Assembly: GCA_028706315.1 (NCBI GenBank)
Contig: JAQWBP010000012.1
Coordinates: forward strand, 1 to 50,499
DNA length: 50,499 nucleotides
Source: Syntrophomonadaceae bacterium
GTDB taxonomy: Bacteria; Bacillota; Syntrophomonadia; Syntrophomonadales; Syntrophomonadaceae
Direction: 5' to 3'
Made by a program: the position numbers and the translations under genes. Position 1 is the stretch's first letter. Each line of letters begins with the position of its first letter. Of this stretch, positions 5,025 to 50,251 are shown piece after piece. Below the pieces are notes generated by a model that saw only the letters and a program-made list of their open reading frames with translations, was not told the DNA's origin and made no database searches.

Positions 5025-5032
5025 AAAAAAAA

Positions 5033-5110
5033 ACAATCATGTAACTGGCGGATAATGGAGTTCACCATAATGGAGCATGATTGAATAGATTATCGACCGC
5101 CTGGGTAAAT
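5033..5110 (+). ncRNA. ZTP/ZMP (pfl) riboswitch aptamer
   Basis: The RNA shows the pfl-motif layout. P1 pairs AATCATG (5035-5041) with CATGATT (5076-5082). After it comes the conserved CTGGCGGA segment, a small hairpin ATGG...CCAT, and the 3' half ACCGCCTGGGT, whose CCGCC pairs with GGCGG as the pseudoknot. These are the invariant elements of riboswitches that sense the purine intermediates ZMP and ZTP. The gene controlled is an AICAR (ZMP) transformylase, exactly the expected target. An overlapping terminator gives the expression platform. Confidence 0.9.
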
Positions 5111-5137
5111 ATTAATTTAATTTATCCAGGCTTTTTT
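5100..5137 (+). terminator. Riboswitch-controlled intrinsic terminator
   Basis: CCTGGGTAAAT (5100-5110) pairs with ATTTATCCAGG and is followed by CTTTTTTG. The 5' arm is also the 3' part of the ZTP aptamer (CCGCCTGGG). Ligand binding would therefore block the terminator and switch the downstream gene on. Confidence 0.85.
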
Positions 5138-5164: not shown

Positions 5165-6340
5165 ATGGGGAATTCAGAAATTGTACTTAAGTATGGATGT
5201 AATCCACATCAAAAGCCAGCAAGGATTTATGGTAAAAATAAAACATTGCCTATTAAAATCCTAAATGGCACACCAGGCTATATTAATTTTATGGACGCAT
5301 TTAACTCATGGCAGTTGGTAAAGGAGTTAAAACAGGCAACTGGATTACCTGCTGCAGCTTCATTTAAACATGTAAGTCCAGCAGGGGCTGCAGTAGGAGT
5401 TCCTTTGAGTAATGTATTAAAAAAATCATATTTTGTTGAGGATATAGAATTATCTTCTGTTGCTGCTGCATATGCCAGAGCCAGGGGAGCAGATAGAATG
5501 TCTTCCTACGGGGATTGGGCAGCTATAAGTGATATTGTTGATTTACCTACTGCAATAATATTGAGCAGATCTGTTTCTGATGGAGTGATTGCTCCTGGAT
5601 ATACTGATGAAGCCATGGAACTGTTAATAAAAAAGAAAAAAGGCAAGTATTGTATTATTGAAATGGATTGGGATTATGAACCTGAAGGGGTAGAGACCAG
5701 AGAGATATATGGAATAACCTTTGAGCAAAAAAGAAATGATTTAATAATCAACAATGAGATGCTTAATAATATCGTTACTAATAATAAGAATATCACTGAG
5801 GATGCAAAACGCGACCTGCTTATTGCTATGATTACATTGAAATATACTCAGTCCAATTCAGTTTGTTTTGCTTTAGATGGTCAAGTAATTGGTGTAGGTG
5901 CTGGGCAGCAATCCCGAATACACTGTACAAGACTAGCTGCATCCAAGGCAGATATTTGGTATTTAAGGCAGCATCCGGCGGTGCTGCAGTTACCATTTAA
6001 AGAGGGAGTTGCGAAACCTGAAAGGGATAATGTAATAGATCAGTATCTTAGAGATGATATAACTCCAATGGAAATGAAAGGGTGGGGGAATGTACTGGAA
6101 ATGATCCCGAACAGATTAACAAGCGAAGAAAAAGCAACATGGCTCTCAAATCTAACTGGTGTTTCCTTAGGTTCCGATGCATTTTTCCCATTTAGAGACA
6201 ATGTTGACAGAGCAGCCAAAAGTGGAGTTAAATTTATTGTTCAAGCGGGTGGTTCAATAAGAGATGATATAGTTATAGAAGCATGTAATGAATACGATAT
6301 GGTTATGGCTTTTTCCAGTGTGAGGTTGTTTCACCACTAA
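5165..6340 (+). CDS. AICAR transformylase (PurH-type, without IMP cyclohydrolase domain)
   Basis: 391-aa enzyme expected to transfer a formyl group from 10-formyl-tetrahydrofolate to AICAR (ZMP) in the penultimate step of purine synthesis. The sequence follows the PurH transformylase domain: KYGCNPHQKPARIY near the start, SFKHVSPAGAAVG (about 66-78) with the catalytic Lys-His, YTQSNSVCFALDGQVIGVGAG in the middle, and SDAFFPFRDNVD plus QAGGSIRD at the end. The N-terminal IMP cyclohydrolase (MGS-like) domain of bifunctional PurH is absent, not truncated, since an AGGAGG site precedes ATG 5165. Control by the upstream ZTP riboswitch supports the role. Another gene must supply IMP cyclohydrolase. 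No folate or purine genes adjoin it. Confidence 0.9.
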   Translation: MGNSEIVLKYGCNPHQKPARIYGKNKTLPIKILNGTPGYINFMDAFNSWQLVKELKQATGLPAAASFKHVSPAGAAVGVPLSNVLKKSYFVEDIELSSVAAAYARARGADRMSSYGDWAAISDIVDLPTAIILSRSVSDGVIAPGYTDEAMELLIKKKKGKYCIIEMDWDYEPEGVETREIYGITFEQKRNDLIINNEMLNNIVTNNKNITEDAKRDLLIAMITLKYTQSNSVCFALDGQVIGVGAGQQSRIHCTRLAASKADIWYLRQHPAVLQLPFKEGVAKPERDNVIDQYLRDDITPMEMKGWGNVLEMIPNRLTSEEKATWLSNLTGVSLGSDAFFPFRDNVDRAAKSGVKFIVQAGGSIRDDIVIEACNEYDMVMAFSSVRLFHH

Positions 6341-8835: not shown

Positions 8836-9677
8836 TAATATCTCATTGAGGTGAGAATATGGCTAGGGAAGCTAGAACAGAGAGCCAAACAGGCTACTAT
8901 CATGTAATGATGAGAGGCAACAACAGAGAAATGATATTCAATCAAACTGTAGAGAAACAATACTTTATGGAACTACTACAGCAGCAGGCAGACGAAGAAA
9001 AAATTCTAATAGCGGCATATTGTTTGATGGATAACCATGGACATCTTCTAATTAAGTCAGATCTACAAGTAATGTCAGAAGCACTTAAATGGATAAATAT
9101 CAAGTTTGCGCAAAGGTATAATTATAAATATAAACAAATAGGTCATGTATTTCAGGATAGGTACAAAAGTGAAGTCATCAATACAGAGGAACATCTTATA
9201 CAAGTAATGAGATATATACATAACAATCCTGTGAAAGCCAAAATAGTATCAAAAATATCTGACTATAAGTGGAGTAGTTATAAAAGCTATACTGAAAAGA
9301 AAAACAAACTGATAAGTTCCGAAGAAAGACAGATGATAATAGATCTGTTTTCAGGTTCAATAAAACAGTTTGAAAAATTTCACCTAGAAGAAGAAATCAC
9401 GGAATTTTTAGAAACTAAAGAGGATTTGGAACGGGAACGAGAGGACAAGGCCAAGAGAATCATAGATAAATACTGTCAACAATATGAGATAATAGATGCC
9501 AAAGAGTTAAAAAATAGAAAAGGTGTTTTGGAAAAGGTTGTCATTGAAATTTTAGAAAAGAGCCATTTATCTCACAGAAGAATAGCTGAATTGGTAGGTG
9601 TAACTAGGGGTAGAGTTCATAATATAGCTAAGAAAGCATAATATGGTGCAACGGGAACCGTCCCCAATGCACCATAT
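8792..9677 (+). mobile_element. Intact REP-associated tyrosine transposase (RAYT) element
   Basis: The element runs from the left palindrome (8793-8817; outer TGCAA/TTGCA, inner AGGGA/TTCCT, loop CGG) to the right palindrome (9641-9677; outer ATATGGTGCA/TGCACCATAT, inner GGGA/TCCC). The two ends are related in inverted orientation through the GGGACGGTTCCYGTTGCA core. Between them is one transposase gene. Sub-terminal hairpins plus an HUH tyrosine transposase are the hallmark of RAYT/REP systems, which do not make ordinary target duplications. The right end stops 2 bp short of the -35 box of the next gene. Confidence 0.85.
8859..9641 (+). CDS. REP-associated tyrosine transposase (HUH, Y1 family)
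   Basis: 260-aa single-strand DNA transposase of the IS200-like Y1 superfamily that should recognise the REP palindromes at both ends of the element. The start MAREARTESQTGYYHVMMRG is typical of RAYTs. DNHGHLLI (about 58-65) carries the HUH metal-binding pair. GHVFQDRYKSE and YIHNNPVKA (about 121-129) provide the conserved region with the nucleophilic Tyr. The C-terminal third (from about 180) is rich in charged residues and ends with a small helix-turn-helix-like part (HRRIAELVGVTRGRV). GAGGTGAG precedes ATG 8859. All key residues are intact, so the protein may be active. Confidence 0.9.
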   Translation: MAREARTESQTGYYHVMMRGNNREMIFNQTVEKQYFMELLQQQADEEKILIAAYCLMDNHGHLLIKSDLQVMSEALKWINIKFAQRYNYKYKQIGHVFQDRYKSEVINTEEHLIQVMRYIHNNPVKAKIVSKISDYKWSSYKSYTEKKNKLISSEERQMIIDLFSGSIKQFEKFHLEEEITEFLETKEDLEREREDKAKRIIDKYCQQYEIIDAKELKNRKGVLEKVVIEILEKSHLSHRRIAELVGVTRGRVHNIAKKA

Positions 9678-9708: not shown

Positions 9709-9758
9709 AAATATTGTATTAATTTTAGGGACCCTATTTTCAAATGTAAATGAAAAAA

Positions 9759-9794
9759 ATGCCCTTGTTTGCGTACGAACAGGGGTATTTTTTT
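9759..9794 (+). terminator. Leader terminator (attenuator) before the DUF2179 gene
   Basis: ATGCCCTTGTT (9759-9769) pairs with AACAGGGGTAT (9778-9788), 11 bp with two G-T pairs, followed by seven T. It lies between the promoter at 9680-9708 and the start codon at 9819, so it should attenuate the gene. AGGG at 9727-9730 could pair with CCCT at 9762-9765 as a competing anti-terminator. Confidence 0.65.
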
Positions 9795-9818
9795 GTCATA
9801 AAGGAGAAATGTCAAAAA

Positions 9819-10349
9819 ATGCTAACCGTTACAATGTTTCAATTGGCACTTATTTTTACGCTAAATGCAATTAGCACAAGTCTAGGAACTTTGAAAGCAA
9901 TTTTCCTTAGTAAGCAAATCATCAAACCGGTGTATTTTACCACCTTTTTAGATGCACTTATATTTGCCTATGCATTTAAGTTGATTGCAGATTCTTCAGG
10001 GCTCATATTTGTCCTGGCCTTTGCCCTGGGTAAGGCCGCGGGGATATTTTTAGGAAGTCTAATTGACAGGAAGGCTGCAATCGGTGTAATAGAAACTACC
10101 GTATACAAACATCCTAAACAAGGTATAATCCTGGCAGATCAATTGCGTGCCAAGGGCTATTCGGTAACGACGTTGATGGGATATGGTATAGAAGGAAAAG
10201 ACCGCTTGCTATTAAACATCATCAGCCCCCGTAAAAACTTCCCTGAATTGAAAAAAATCCTGATTATGGACGGAGAAATCAACATGTCTGTTAGGGATGT
10301 AACCAAAGTTGCAGGCAAGGTAGGCAGTATATCAATGCCGCCTGCATAG
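9819..10349 (+). CDS. DUF2179 / UPF0316 family membrane protein
   Basis: 176-aa protein with about three hydrophobic N-terminal segments (residues 1-100) and a soluble C-terminal DUF2179-type domain (from about 105) of alternating strands and helices, e.g. GVIETTVYKHPKQG and GKDRLLLNIISPRK. This matches the UPF0316 family, whose function is unknown; the C-terminal domain is thought to sense a small ligand. The ATG at 9819 is used, with AAGGAG about 12 nt upstream; an in-frame ATG at 9834 is also possible. Expression seems attenuated by a leader terminator. A decayed copy of its first 19 codons lies at 13109. Confidence 0.75.
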   Translation: MLTVTMFQLALIFTLNAISTSLGTLKAIFLSKQIIKPVYFTTFLDALIFAYAFKLIADSSGLIFVLAFALGKAAGIFLGSLIDRKAAIGVIETTVYKHPKQGIILADQLRAKGYSVTTLMGYGIEGKDRLLLNIISPRKNFPELKKILIMDGEINMSVRDVTKVAGKVGSISMPPA

Positions 10350-41236: not shown

Positions 41237-42637
41237 CTAAAAAACTTTTCCGGGATTCATAATGCCATGGGGGTCAAACGCTTTTTTAATTCTCTTCATA
41301 TACTCAACAGCCAGGCCATGTTCGAGTTCGGCATAACTGCGCCTTACAGCGCCCACACCATGTTCACCTGTAGTCGTACCGCCCATTTCAATAGCCAGCA
41401 GATGTATTTCATGGACAAGTTTTAAGACCCTTTCGACTTCTTCGGGGTTTTCCGGATTAATGACTGGTGCGCTGTGAACATTGCCATCTCCAATATGACC
41501 ATAATTAACGATTTGAATCCCGTATTTTTTGCCCAGAGAGCGAATGGCTCTTAAAGTATCAGCAACCCGCGAAATAGGAATACTAATATCTTCTCCGGCA
41601 AAAATACGAGTACCATCAGGTCGTACTCTTGCAGCTGCAGTTGCAGTAACACTTCGTCCTTCCCACAACTGAGTCATCCTAACCGGGTCAGTAGACCATT
41701 CTACCTCCCGAGCTCTTTTCCCAGCTACTTCCTTAATTACCTGGCCCTCATATTCTACACTGGGAGGATTTCCATCTACCTCAAATAACAATATCGCTTC
41801 TGCATTGGGTAGATTAATCTCAGGCTTAAAGTCATTAACAGCGTGAATTGCCGAACTATCTAATATTTCAATACCCGAGGGAAGGATACCGGCCTGATAC
41901 ACTTCAAGTACCGTGGCTGGAGCATCATCCAGATTATCAAAAACGGCCATAGCAATACCGCGTGCGCTAGGTTTAGGTATGCATCTTATCCTGATGCGAG
42001 TAATGATACCAAGTATTCCTTCTGAACCTACCATAAGTTTGGTCAGGTTAATGCCGGATACATTTTTTATCGTACGAGCCTTCATACCACCCGTAGTTAT
42101 CACTTCTCCATTTGGCATAACTACCTCCAGGCCCAGAATATAAGGTTCAGTACTCCAGTATTTTACGGCCCTGAGGCCTGATGCATTATTGGCAACCATA
42201 CCACCAATGGTACACATCTTACTGCTACCCGGATCGGGGGGGAAAAATAGATTGTATTTAGCCAGTTCGTTATTTAAATCCGCATGTATAACCCCCGGTC
42301 GAACAATTACCTGCATATTCATAGCATCTATTTCTTCAATATCACTCCAGGTAGAAAGGTCCATTACAATTCCACCTTCGATAGCTATGCACCCACCGGT
42401 TTCACCGGTGCCTGCTCCGCGAGGTATTATATTTATATTATTATTCCAAGCAAATTTCATGACTTGCTGAACATCTTCCGTTGATCTTGGAAATACTACT
42501 GCATCCGGAGTTGCTGGTTTCAGTTTGGTAAGGAAAGAACTATCGTACGAATAGTACATCAGGTCCAGGTTCTCTGTAAGAACTTTTTCCTGGCCTAGCA
42601 TTTTGCTCAGCTCTTCCTTGATAGCTACTTGTTCCAT
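41237..42637 (-). CDS. glcD: FAD-linked oxidase, GlcD/D-lactate dehydrogenase type
   Basis: 466-aa flavoprotein of the vanillyl-alcohol oxidase superfamily. The FAD PCMH domain has IIPRGAGTGETGG (about 75-87) and DPGSSKMCTIGGMVANNASG. The C-terminal part has GHIGDGNVHSAP and GTTTGEHGVGAVRR. It oxidises a 2-hydroxyacid such as glycolate or D-lactate with FAD and passes electrons to the GlcF-like subunit encoded 53 bp downstream. Which acid it uses is open. A strong AAGGAGGACC site precedes the ATG. Confidence 0.92.
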   Translation of the reverse strand: MEQVAIKEELSKMLGQEKVLTENLDLMYYSYDSSFLTKLKPATPDAVVFPRSTEDVQQVMKFAWNNNINIIPRGAGTGETGGCIAIEGGIVMDLSTWSDIEEIDAMNMQVIVRPGVIHADLNNELAKYNLFFPPDPGSSKMCTIGGMVANNASGLRAVKYWSTEPYILGLEVVMPNGEVITTGGMKARTIKNVSGINLTKLMVGSEGILGIITRIRIRCIPKPSARGIAMAVFDNLDDAPATVLEVYQAGILPSGIEILDSSAIHAVNDFKPEINLPNAEAILLFEVDGNPPSVEYEGQVIKEVAGKRAREVEWSTDPVRMTQLWEGRSVTATAAARVRPDGTRIFAGEDISIPISRVADTLRAIRSLGKKYGIQIVNYGHIGDGNVHSAPVINPENPEEVERVLKLVHEIHLLAIEMGGTTTGEHGVGAVRRSYAELEHGLAVEYMKRIKKAFDPHGIMNPGKVF

Positions 42638-42689
42638 AACTGGTCCTCCTTAAAAACGTCTTCATATACGTTTCCGAAAATTCTAGCTT

Positions 42690-42698
42690 ATTATAACA
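42690..42698 (-). promoter_or_regulatory. Extended -10 promoter of glcD-glcF
   Basis: On the minus strand TGTTATAAT is an extended -10 consensus (TGN-TATAAT), about 53 bp before the glcD start. No clear -35 is needed or seen. Confidence 0.55.
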
Positions 42699-42769
42699 TA
42701 AAAAAAAATGCCCATTTCACTTAAAACTAAATATTTATGCATTTGCGTGCAACTTAAAACAGAAGAAAA

Positions 42770-42795
42770 CCTTAGATGCAGATCTGCATCTAAGG
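42770..42795. promoter_or_regulatory. Enhancer-like dyad 1 (ATGC-N6-GCAT)
   Basis: A perfect 26-bp palindrome, CCTTAGATGCAGA and its complement, with ATGC at 42776-42779 and GCAT at 42786-42789. Centre about 213 bp before the expected sigma-54 start point. Confidence 0.7.
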
Positions 42796-42842
42796 TGGAA
42801 GAGCTTGGGTGATGTACATTCAAAGATGCTGTTTTACTATAG

Positions 42843-42862
42843 TGCATAATGCAATATTGCAT
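42843..42862. promoter_or_regulatory. Enhancer-like dyad 2 (ATGC-N6-GCAT)
   Basis: ATGCAATATTGCAT (42849-42862) is a perfect palindrome of the same design, overlapping a second palindrome TGCATAATGCA (42843-42853). Its centre is 73 bp from dyad 1, close to seven helical turns. Confidence 0.7.
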
Positions 42863-42892
42863 GGTTATTGATGCTGAAAAGCATTAATAACC
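42863..42892. promoter_or_regulatory. Enhancer-like dyad 3 (ATGC-N6-GCAT)
   Basis: GGTTATTGATGC (42863-42874) and GCATTAATAACC (42881-42892) are inverted with a single mismatch around TGAAAA, again giving ATGC-N6-GCAT. Its centre is 22 bp from dyad 2, about two helical turns. Confidence 0.7.
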
Positions 42893-42969
42893 GGTGTAAT
42901 AGGTATAAATATTAGTTACCATTAGCACAAAAGACTGGTCTACCGGCCTTAGGCCTATTAGCCAAAAGC

Positions 42970-42985
42970 TGGCATGTTTTTTGCA
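42970..42985 (+). promoter_or_regulatory. Sigma-54 promoter
   Basis: TGGCATGTTTTTTGCA matches TGGCAC-N5-TTGCW at all but one position, with GG (42971-42972) and GC (42983-42984) exactly 10 bp apart. Three matching dyads 100-200 bp upstream give the enhancer sites such promoters need. Confidence 0.8.
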
Positions 42986-42995
42986 ATTATTAAAT

Positions 42996-43096
42996 ACAAC
43001 AAAAGGTTTAAATATTCTGACTGAAGAAATAAACTTCTTGACCATGTATGCCGTAATAGGAAAGTACCTCCGGGGTAAGTAACCGGAGGTACTTTT
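42996..43096 (+). ncRNA. Candidate sigma-54-dependent small RNA (or micropeptide mRNA)
   Basis: A transcript started about 11 bp after the sigma-54 promoter would end at the strong hairpin 43061-43096, giving about 100 nt. It could form a small hairpin (GAAG/CTTC region, about 43023-43038) and carries a 12-codon frame, ATG 43045 to TAA 43081-43083, encoding MYAVIGKYLRGK and lying partly in the terminator loop. No convincing Shine-Dalgarno site precedes that ATG, so an RNA function is more likely. Confidence 0.5.
43061..43096 (+). terminator. Strong terminator of the candidate small RNA
   Basis: AAAGTACCTCCGG (43061-43073) pairs exactly with CCGGAGGTACTTT (43083-43095) around GGTAAGTAA, and TTTT-CTTTGCTTTT follows. 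Confidence 0.9.
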
Positions 43097-43313
43097 CTTT
43101 GCTTTTCTTGCTTTTGTATAGTAATAGAAATAAACTATTACTTATAAACTAAGGATAATTTTGAAAAAGATACTGAAAATAATGAACCTAGCAGGCAAAT
43201 TATAATTAAGCCTGAAACGCAACGCCCAAAATAGCTGTAAATATTAGTAAATAAGAATAAACCTATTATTTAACTAATAAAATACAGAAGAATATAAATA
43301 AGGAGTAAGTTAA

Positions 43314-44213
43314 ATGTATTCTAGAATTCTTAACTTTATTCCCGCTGAAAGAGTTAAGTTTAACGAACCTATGCATAGGCATACTACTTTTAGAATTGGT
43401 GGACCTGCTGATGTTCTAATTATGCCGGAGAGTTTTGCTGAAGTTACTGAAATAGTTTCATTTTGTAAAGATAGAGGTATTAGTTTTTTTATACTGGGAA
43501 TGGGCAGCAATATACTTGTGCGGGATAAAGGTATCAGAGGTGTGGTTATAAAACTTGGTAACAAACTAAAAAACATTCGTATTTCCGATAATAATATATA
43601 TGCCGAAACAGGGATAAGACTATCTGAGCTTTCTAAAAGAGCTGCTGCTCACAGTTTGAGCGGATTAGAATTTGCTGAAGGTATTCCCGGGAGCCTTGGT
43701 GGAGCAGTAGTTATGAATGCCGGAGCATATGGGGGAGAGATTAGTAAGGTAGTAGCGGAAGTTGAGGCTATAAATGATAGTGGTTTAGTAAAAAAATTCA
43801 CCCCCGAGCAGATACAGTATGGCTACCGGAAAAGTATTTTCCAAAATAGTGATTATATCATACTGGCTGCGAGTTTTAAGTTAGAGTATGGAGAAAAGGA
43901 AAAAATTCAGGCTACTATGCGTGAATTTGCCCATCTACGAAGGGAAAAACAGCCACTTGATCTGCCCAGCGCAGGGAGTACTTTCCGCCGCCCCGAAGGT
44001 TATTATGTGGGTCCTATGCTTGAAAAGATGGGGCTTAAAGGCTACAACGTCGGGGGAGCAGCAGTATCGGGTAAACATGCTGGTTTTATCGTTAACACTG
44101 GCAGCGCTACCGCCAACGATGTAATTAACCTGATTAAGTATATCCAGCAAAAAGCCCGGGAACAATTCGAAGTAGATTTGCAACCCGAAATAAAAATAAT
44201 CGGTGAAGCCTAA
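43314..44213 (+). CDS. murB: UDP-N-acetylenolpyruvoylglucosamine reductase MurB
   Basis: 299-aa FAD- and NADPH-dependent enzyme of peptidoglycan precursor synthesis, giving UDP-N-acetylmuramate. The FAD domain has HTTFRIGGPADVL (about 22-34) and MGSNILVRDKGIRGVVIKL (about 62-80). GSLGGAVVMNAGAYGGEI and PSAGSTFRRP carry catalytic-region residues, and SGKHAGFIVN is typical of the C-terminal domain. AAGGAG is placed well before ATG 43314. No other cell-wall gene adjoins, but ddh (46590) makes the wall diamino acid. Confidence 0.96.
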   Translation: MYSRILNFIPAERVKFNEPMHRHTTFRIGGPADVLIMPESFAEVTEIVSFCKDRGISFFILGMGSNILVRDKGIRGVVIKLGNKLKNIRISDNNIYAETGIRLSELSKRAAAHSLSGLEFAEGIPGSLGGAVVMNAGAYGGEISKVVAEVEAINDSGLVKKFTPEQIQYGYRKSIFQNSDYIILAASFKLEYGEKEKIQATMREFAHLRREKQPLDLPSAGSTFRRPEGYYVGPMLEKMGLKGYNVGGAAVSGKHAGFIVNTGSATANDVINLIKYIQQKAREQFEVDLQPEIKIIGEA

Positions 44214-48901: not shown

Positions 48902-50251
48902 ATGTTGAAACATCTTACCGTACAGTATAACGAAAAGTTGATAACTGCTGATGAGGCAGCTAAGCTAGTTAAGTCTGGGGATACGGTTTTTATGGGTGAA
49001 TTTGTGATGCTACCTCATGCTCTTGATGCAGCTCTAGCCAAACGAGCTAAAGAACTCGAAAATGTTAACCTTAGGGGGGTTACCCTGACCGGAAAACTAA
49101 AGACTATTGAGGCAGACCCTGAGCGGCAGCATTTCATCTATAATGACTGGCACTTTGGCAGTATGGCCCGAAAACTCCACCAACAAAATCTGGCTAGCTA
49201 TATACCATATACTTATCATCAGGGACCTCGCGTTATACGCAAATACCTGGATCATGATGTTGCTTTTATACAGCTAGGTCCCATGGATACTAACGGATTT
49301 TTTAATCTGGGACCTGCTAACTCCATGACATTTGCCCACTGCAGCAAATCAAAAATAGTGATAGTCGAAGTAAACACTTCGGTTTCACACTGCGCTGGCG
49401 GGAATGGCGAATGTATGCACATCTCTCAGATAGACTACATTGTCGAAGGTGATAATCAACCACTACAAGAGTTAGATGCGATTACACCTACTGATATAGA
49501 TGTGGATATCGCCGGGTACCTCATGGATGAAATTGAAGATGAAAGCTGTTTACAGCTTGGCATAGGCGGACTTCCTAATGTTGTAGGTTCACTGATAGCT
49601 GCGAGCGATTTAAAAGATTTGGGAGTTCATACAGAAATGCTTTGTGATGCTTATGTAGATATGTATGAAGCTGGCCGTATAACTGGTGCCAAAAAGAATA
49701 TTGATAAGTATAAAATGGTCTATACTTTCGCCATGGGCACCCGGAAACTTTATGATTTTCTGGATAACAACCCGGTTTGTGCATCTTATCCGGCTAATTA
49801 TACTAACGACCCGAGGATTATAGGGATGAATGACAAGGTTATTGCCATTAACAACGCTCTGGAAGTAGACCTCTATAGTCAGGTAGCATCAGAATCAAAT
49901 GGATTCCGGCAGATTTCAGGCACTGGCGGACAGTTAGACTTCATACTAGGAGCATTTTATTCTCATGGCGGCAAGGGATTTATCTGTATTAGCTCAACAT
50001 TTACTGATAAAGAAGGTAATATAAAATCTCGAATTACTCCCACTCTTTCACCAGGCACTATAGTTACCTTGCCCAGGTCGTTAACTCACTATGTTGTTAC
50101 TGAATATGGAATTGCACAAATGAAAGGTAAATCTACCTGGCAGCGAGCAGAGGCTCTCATAAATATTGCTCATCCAAACTTCCGGGATGAATTAATCAAG
50201 AAAGCCGATACTATGAAAATATGGGTTAAAAGTAATCGTATTCCTGAATAA
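48902..50251 (+). CDS. Acetyl-CoA hydrolase/transferase family CoA-transferase (butyryl- or 4-hydroxybutyryl-CoA type)
   Basis: 449-aa family I CoA-transferase that swaps CoA between acetate and an acyl-CoA, e.g. butyryl-CoA or 4-hydroxybutyryl-CoA. Motifs are GIGGLPNVVGSL (about 221-232), the region with the catalytic Glu, LGVHTEMLCDAY (about 240-251), GGQLDFILGA, and TEYGIAQMKGKS near the end. The size fits the two-domain family of butyrate- and aminobutyrate-metabolising Clostridia. In a syntrophic butyrate oxidiser it could activate butyrate; in a fermenter it could release it. Confidence 0.9.
   Translation: MLKHLTVQYNEKLITADEAAKLVKSGDTVFMGEFVMLPHALDAALAKRAKELENVNLRGVTLTGKLKTIEADPERQHFIYNDWHFGSMARKLHQQNLASYIPYTYHQGPRVIRKYLDHDVAFIQLGPMDTNGFFNLGPANSMTFAHCSKSKIVIVEVNTSVSHCAGGNGECMHISQIDYIVEGDNQPLQELDAITPTDIDVDIAGYLMDEIEDESCLQLGIGGLPNVVGSLIAASDLKDLGVHTEMLCDAYVDMYEAGRITGAKKNIDKYKMVYTFAMGTRKLYDFLDNNPVCASYPANYTNDPRIIGMNDKVIAINNALEVDLYSQVASESNGFRQISGTGGQLDFILGAFYSHGGKGFICISSTFTDKEGNIKSRITPTLSPGTIVTLPRSLTHYVVTEYGIAQMKGKSTWQRAEALINIAHPNFRDELIKKADTMKIWVKSNRIPE

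Follow-up and report, generated by a model that had tools for sequence, protein, structure and literature searches.

An Intact Enhancer and Sigma-54 Promoter without Genes: A Probable Control Region Left by a Beta-Oxidation Unit in a Syntrophomonadaceae Bacterium

Introduction

Why would a bacterium keep a complete enhancer and a perfect sigma-54 promoter in front of no gene? The question is raised by an intergenic locus in the window, the 50,499-nt stretch of DNA analyzed here (contig JAQWBP010000012.1, positions 1 to 50,499), which belongs to the 2.5 Mb genome (completeness 99.9%) of a Syntrophomonadaceae bacterium (GCA_028706315.1). Between a glcD-like gene and murB, three dyads of the form ATGC-N6-GCAT precede a sigma-54 promoter and a transcription terminator. 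An initial annotation read this arrangement as an activator-controlled small RNA (sRNA) or micropeptide locus. Judging from comparison with related genomes, we consider it likely that the locus is the intact control region of a beta-oxidation unit that was lost or moved, and that it makes a terminated RNA of about 100 nt.

Results

Exact matches to ATGC-N6-GCAT number four in the window against 0.93 expected, and 47 in a scan of the whole genome; three of the four, at 42776, 42849 and 42871, are the dyads already described at this locus. The predicted distal enhancer dyad has its core, ATGCAGATCTGCAT (42776-42789), within a perfect 28-bp palindrome (42769..42796) that resembles a terminator on the minus strand, and exact distal dyads also occur in the equivalent modules of about 13 relatives. 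The predicted proximal dyad A (ATGCAATATTGCAT, 42849..42862) recurs unchanged as a 14-mer at position 10068 of contig C13, in the enhancer of a beta-oxidation operon of the same genome. The predicted proximal dyad B (ATGCTGAAAAGCAT, 42871..42884) lies 22 bp from dyad A, at the center of an inverted repeat of 13 bp (42863-42892). Downstream stands the predicted -24/-12 promoter, TGGCATGTTTTTTGCA (42970..42985, plus strand), which agrees with TGGCAY-N5-TTGCW, carries the GG-N10-GC spacing that the initial annotation had called correct, and is the sole perfect sigma-54 match in the window. An intrinsic terminator follows at 43058..43098 on the plus strand (16-bp stem, T-rich tail, -26.9 kcal/mol), with no gene between it and the promoter. 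Promoter and terminator together predict a plus-strand transcript of about 100 nt (42996..43103) without a convincing open reading frame (ORF), and the earlier description of a short terminated transcript with no normal gene was apt.

The genome is equipped to use such a promoter: it encodes rpoN and 13 strong sigma-54 activators, none of which lies on the window contig, and, as the initial annotation noted, Hfq (gene at about 33191). Its prediction that this promoter is of the type that depends on a bacterial enhancer-binding protein acting from upstream dyads agrees with the sites found. A genome-wide search returned 24 sigma-54 hits against 2 in a reversed control; one promoter is counted twice, on either side of an assembly gap, which leaves 23. 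Five dyads lie within 300 bp upstream of the 23 sites, where 0.13 were expected (Poisson P about 3e-7), and exact dyads are found near only two of the 23 promoters, that of the window and that of the C13 operon. The search for further dyads near sigma-54 promoters that had been proposed thus led to C13, which holds the only two exact dyads outside the window that lie a short way 5' of a perfect sigma-54 site. Their distances to this site, the promoter TGGCATGCTTATTGCT, are ~116 and ~219 bp, a partner dyad 23 bp away appears when one mismatch is allowed, and the promoter precedes a crt-hbd-thl-bcd-CoA (coenzyme A) transferase operon with a gene for a PAS and AAA+ domain activator at its far end. 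On C13 (genome handle G000), a run of N at 9710-9952 marks an assembly gap whose ends are duplicated, so that the pair of sigma-54 hits at this place probably reflects a single promoter.

The same module recurs across the family. Searching 54 family genomes with the pattern dyad, 70..130 bp, TGGCAY-N5-TTGC, we found 33 promoters in 29 genomes and none in a reversed control. Acyl-CoA genes lie 3' of 31 of the 33, mostly those of butyrate beta-oxidation (crotonase, hydroxybutyryl-CoA dehydrogenase, thiolase, acyl-CoA dehydrogenase and CoA transferase); three modules precede genes that we take to be of acyl-CoA dehydratase type, recognized from their sequences rather than named by a tool. One of the two exceptions (L152) falls by chance within an ORF; the other is the window, which is the only intergenic module without an acyl-CoA gene. 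In relatives the dyads usually form pairs with a spacing of 21-23 bp, and an additional dyad is often present farther upstream. The window shares this architecture, with a dyad pair of that spacing standing about 80-135 bp before the promoter, and departs from it directly downstream, where the place of a beta-oxidation gene is taken by murB at +344, behind the terminator. Of the helical phasing first claimed for the three dyads, the 22-bp proximal spacing is borne out by the family, whereas the 73-bp distal spacing is not a conserved feature, because relatives range from 22 to 127 bp. Exact dyad-pair modules among 84,980 species occurred on 15 contigs, 12 of them labelled Syntrophomonas or Syntrophomonadaceae and the other three Bacillota, Gelria and Pseudogracilibacillus. 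Activators 64-69% identical to that of C13 are encoded last in operons under the module in G053, G034 and the L148 contig. The two halves of 23-bp dyad pairs in L111, L117, L122, L126 and others are inverted copies of each other, exact or nearly so and extending even into N6 (permutation p about 0.02), a likeness that template switching or a paired structure might maintain.

Gene order in relatives suggests what this locus may have lost. In G053, glcF-glcD is followed by three dyads with a sigma-54 promoter, crt-thl-bcd-CoA transferase, an activator gene (product 64% identical to the C13 activator), one further gene and murB. The G053 promoter 16-mer is identical to that of the window, and its dyads stand at -207/-123/-100, compared with -194/-121/-99 in the window. 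A shorter arrangement, glcD, module, CoA transferase, murB, is found in G035-G037; the G035 and G037 loci have an exact dyad, in G036 the single exact dyad is at -231, and the G036 module falls outside the 33 counted by pattern. In all, glcD flanks the module in G053, G025, G029 and G035-G037. The window retains the frame, with glcD (a glcD-like FAD oxidase gene, 41237..42637, minus strand) divergent from the module, then the terminator and murB (43314..44213, plus strand), and the beta-oxidation genes seen between glcD and murB in G053 are absent. This synteny with G053 and G035-G037, the same promoter, the near-equal dyad offsets and the missing genes are the grounds on which we take the locus to have controlled a beta-oxidation unit that has since been lost or has moved.

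Several observations weigh against this reading. We found no protein remnants of lost genes in 42638-43313, and ten relatives in which glcD and murB are adjacent, among them G019, the closest relative by MurB, show no trace of the module; taken together, these findings make gain of a bare module possible. The backbone of the MurB tree leaves the order of gain and loss unresolved. Finally, the perfect state of all the sites suggests either that the loss was recent or that selection continues on some output.

Leaders of module-driven operons share a hairpin, designated R2, of the form GCUACUG-N-UCUAUGAUG ... CAUCAUGGA-N-CAGUAGC followed by a C-run and a U-run. A covariance model built from 10 sequences and searched in 63 genomes of the order detected R2 in 27 genomes and 12 genera (leader loci L155-L179, L182-L184 and L097, the last at 9537-9632 on the minus strand of C13). 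Each of the best 28 matches has a sigma-54 site upstream and nearly all precede beta-oxidation genes; the hairpin lies typically about 75-80 nt from the -24 box (73-93 nt in 24 of these 28). Nine of 16 pairs show double changes. Compensatory cells number 52 against 14.6 +/- 3.1 in shuffles, a figure inflated because the alignment was fitted to the structure; an unfitted alignment of the 10 sequences gives a weaker signal (4 cells against 1.5). R2 matches no Rfam family and looks like an unlisted attenuator-type leader RNA. The window is not a match to the model (8.2 bits, E 0.1, at the terminator); its terminator starts 88 nt past the -24 box, near the distance at which R2 hairpins occur. The leaders of the glcD-linked crt operons L107, L108 and L126 lack R2 and share ACAGTCCTC...GTATTAGTT followed by a G-run.

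The principal alternative to a lost or moved unit is a purpose-built or re-purposed sRNA, controlled by the activator, co-induced with beta-oxidation and acting in trans with Hfq, which we judge unlikely. It would account for dyads, promoter and strong terminator being perfectly kept without a gene, the genome does encode Hfq, and the dyads common to the window and the C13 operon imply co-regulation. The predicted RNA itself (42996-43098), however, has no homologue by blastn in the 63 order genomes or by covariance model in the 54 family genomes, which leaves a purpose-built sRNA unproven; a conserved trans-acting sRNA would be recognizable by sequence or structure in relatives. Two blastn matches were set aside, one in G046 (short, on a different sigma-54 promoter that precedes a 4-hydroxybutyryl-CoA dehydratase-like gene, and read as no more than similarity between promoters) and one in G041 (weak and AT-rich). 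Pairing of the RNA with the beta-oxidation, glcD, glcF and murB mRNAs did not exceed that of shuffled controls, and the usual role of the module is to drive operons. Of the conservation in relatives that the initial annotation had proposed to look for, dyads and promoter have it and the RNA does not; an evolved sRNA locus is unsupported, and structural gene loss better explains the orphan state because the module normally drives beta-oxidation operons. The proposed micropeptide is not credible, since the only ATG frame seen past the start site encodes 12 amino acids and runs into the terminator. The window RNA may still be transcribed. A more doubtful variant is that the family's beta-oxidation sigma-54 promoters make short terminated leaders by design, and that the window leader was separated from its operon and persists as an independent RNA that regulates butyrate oxidation.

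The remaining explanations are less probable again. That the module acts not through RNA and instead regulates the divergent glcDF genes or titrates a shared activator seems improbable: the dyads and promoter are 130-330 bp away from glcD, which accompanies such modules in the six genomes named above, but no sigma-54 promoter points toward glcD (best minus-strand score 6.0, compared with 17-26 for real sites), glcD is kept without the module in the ten relatives, and titration would be weak because there are only three dyads. Very little weight falls on an assembly artefact, the omission of an operon that in truth separates the promoter from murB. The genome's other module is indeed broken by a gap with duplicated ends; the window, however, contains no N, its contig is continuous, a real terminator lies inside the interval, and the genome is nearly complete by the measure given above. 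Least probable of all is that the dyads belong to hairpins in a longer structured RNA read from the plus strand and are not protein sites. The plus strand folds with a z of -9.7 and, compared with the minus strand, gives the better version of a 20-bp stem capped by a GAAA loop (42855-42900), yet the dyads recur at similar positions 5' of sigma-54 promoters amid unrelated flanks in 29 genomes, there is no Rfam match and the fold is not conserved; this interpretation was dropped after the family comparison.

Elsewhere in the window, a CoA-transferase gene at the right edge (48902..50251, plus strand) is 63% identical to the module-driven CoA transferase of G002. It has no dyads or sigma-54 site of its own and, although related to module-driven genes, is not evidently the missing gene of a locus 5.9 kb upstream. 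An Rfam scan of the window and the locus returned only a ZTP riboswitch (5031-5113, plus strand, 63.2 bits), just 5' of an ORF at 5165, and nothing at the dyads and promoter; blastn against phages and plasmids gave no match.

Discussion

We propose that 42769-42985 is an intact enhancer and sigma-54 promoter module of a beta-oxidation regulon in the Syntrophomonadaceae. An enhancer-binding protein with a PAS domain, in all likelihood the activator linked to the C13 operon, would bind the ATGC-N6-GCAT dyads and loop to the sigma-54 RNA polymerase holoenzyme (E-sigma54) at 42970, with RNA starting near 42996. The structural genes between module and murB appear to have been lost from this genome, and with them gone transcription would end at about 43098 after about 100 nt.

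In Clostridium, CrbR is predicted to act with sigma-54 on crotonase operons (PMC6615313), and the module resembles that system in its promoter, multiple upstream activator sites and crotonase operon; the activators of that survey are, moreover, mostly PAS-domain enhancer-binding proteins. It differs in that CrbR sites have the form TGT-N10-12-ACA, which the window dyads do not fit, in its occurrence in butyrate oxidizers (the text of PMC6615313 contains no word starting Syntropho-) and, for the window, in lacking the operon. A computational survey predicts sigma-54 control of beta-oxidation COGs in Clostridia and Bacilli (PMC12316311), as proposed for beta-oxidation genes here; in the portion available it names acyl-CoA dehydrogenase, 3-hydroxyacyl-CoA dehydrogenase, enoyl-CoA hydratase and thiolase. 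Unlike our analysis, that portion contains no Syntropho- word, enhancer dyads or leader RNAs. In Syntrophomonas wolfei, a PAS/sigma-54 regulator of the Swol_0456 type was seen only in butyrate-grown cells (PMC4324140, available portion). Such regulators share the domain plan of the C13 activator, a likeness by domains alone, and that portion assigns them no targets or binding sites, whereas dyads are proposed here. The open-access literature, outside which most subscription journals lie, yielded nothing on these dyads or the leader RNA.

Little is known about how the central energy pathway of syntrophic butyrate oxidizers is switched on. The module offers a family-wide, testable assignment that joins a PAS activator, ATGC-N6-GCAT dyads, sigma-54 and beta-oxidation, together with an apparently unlisted leader RNA in the beta-oxidation operons. 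The window adds a natural orphan promoter, whose retention can separate decay from re-use as an RNA gene.
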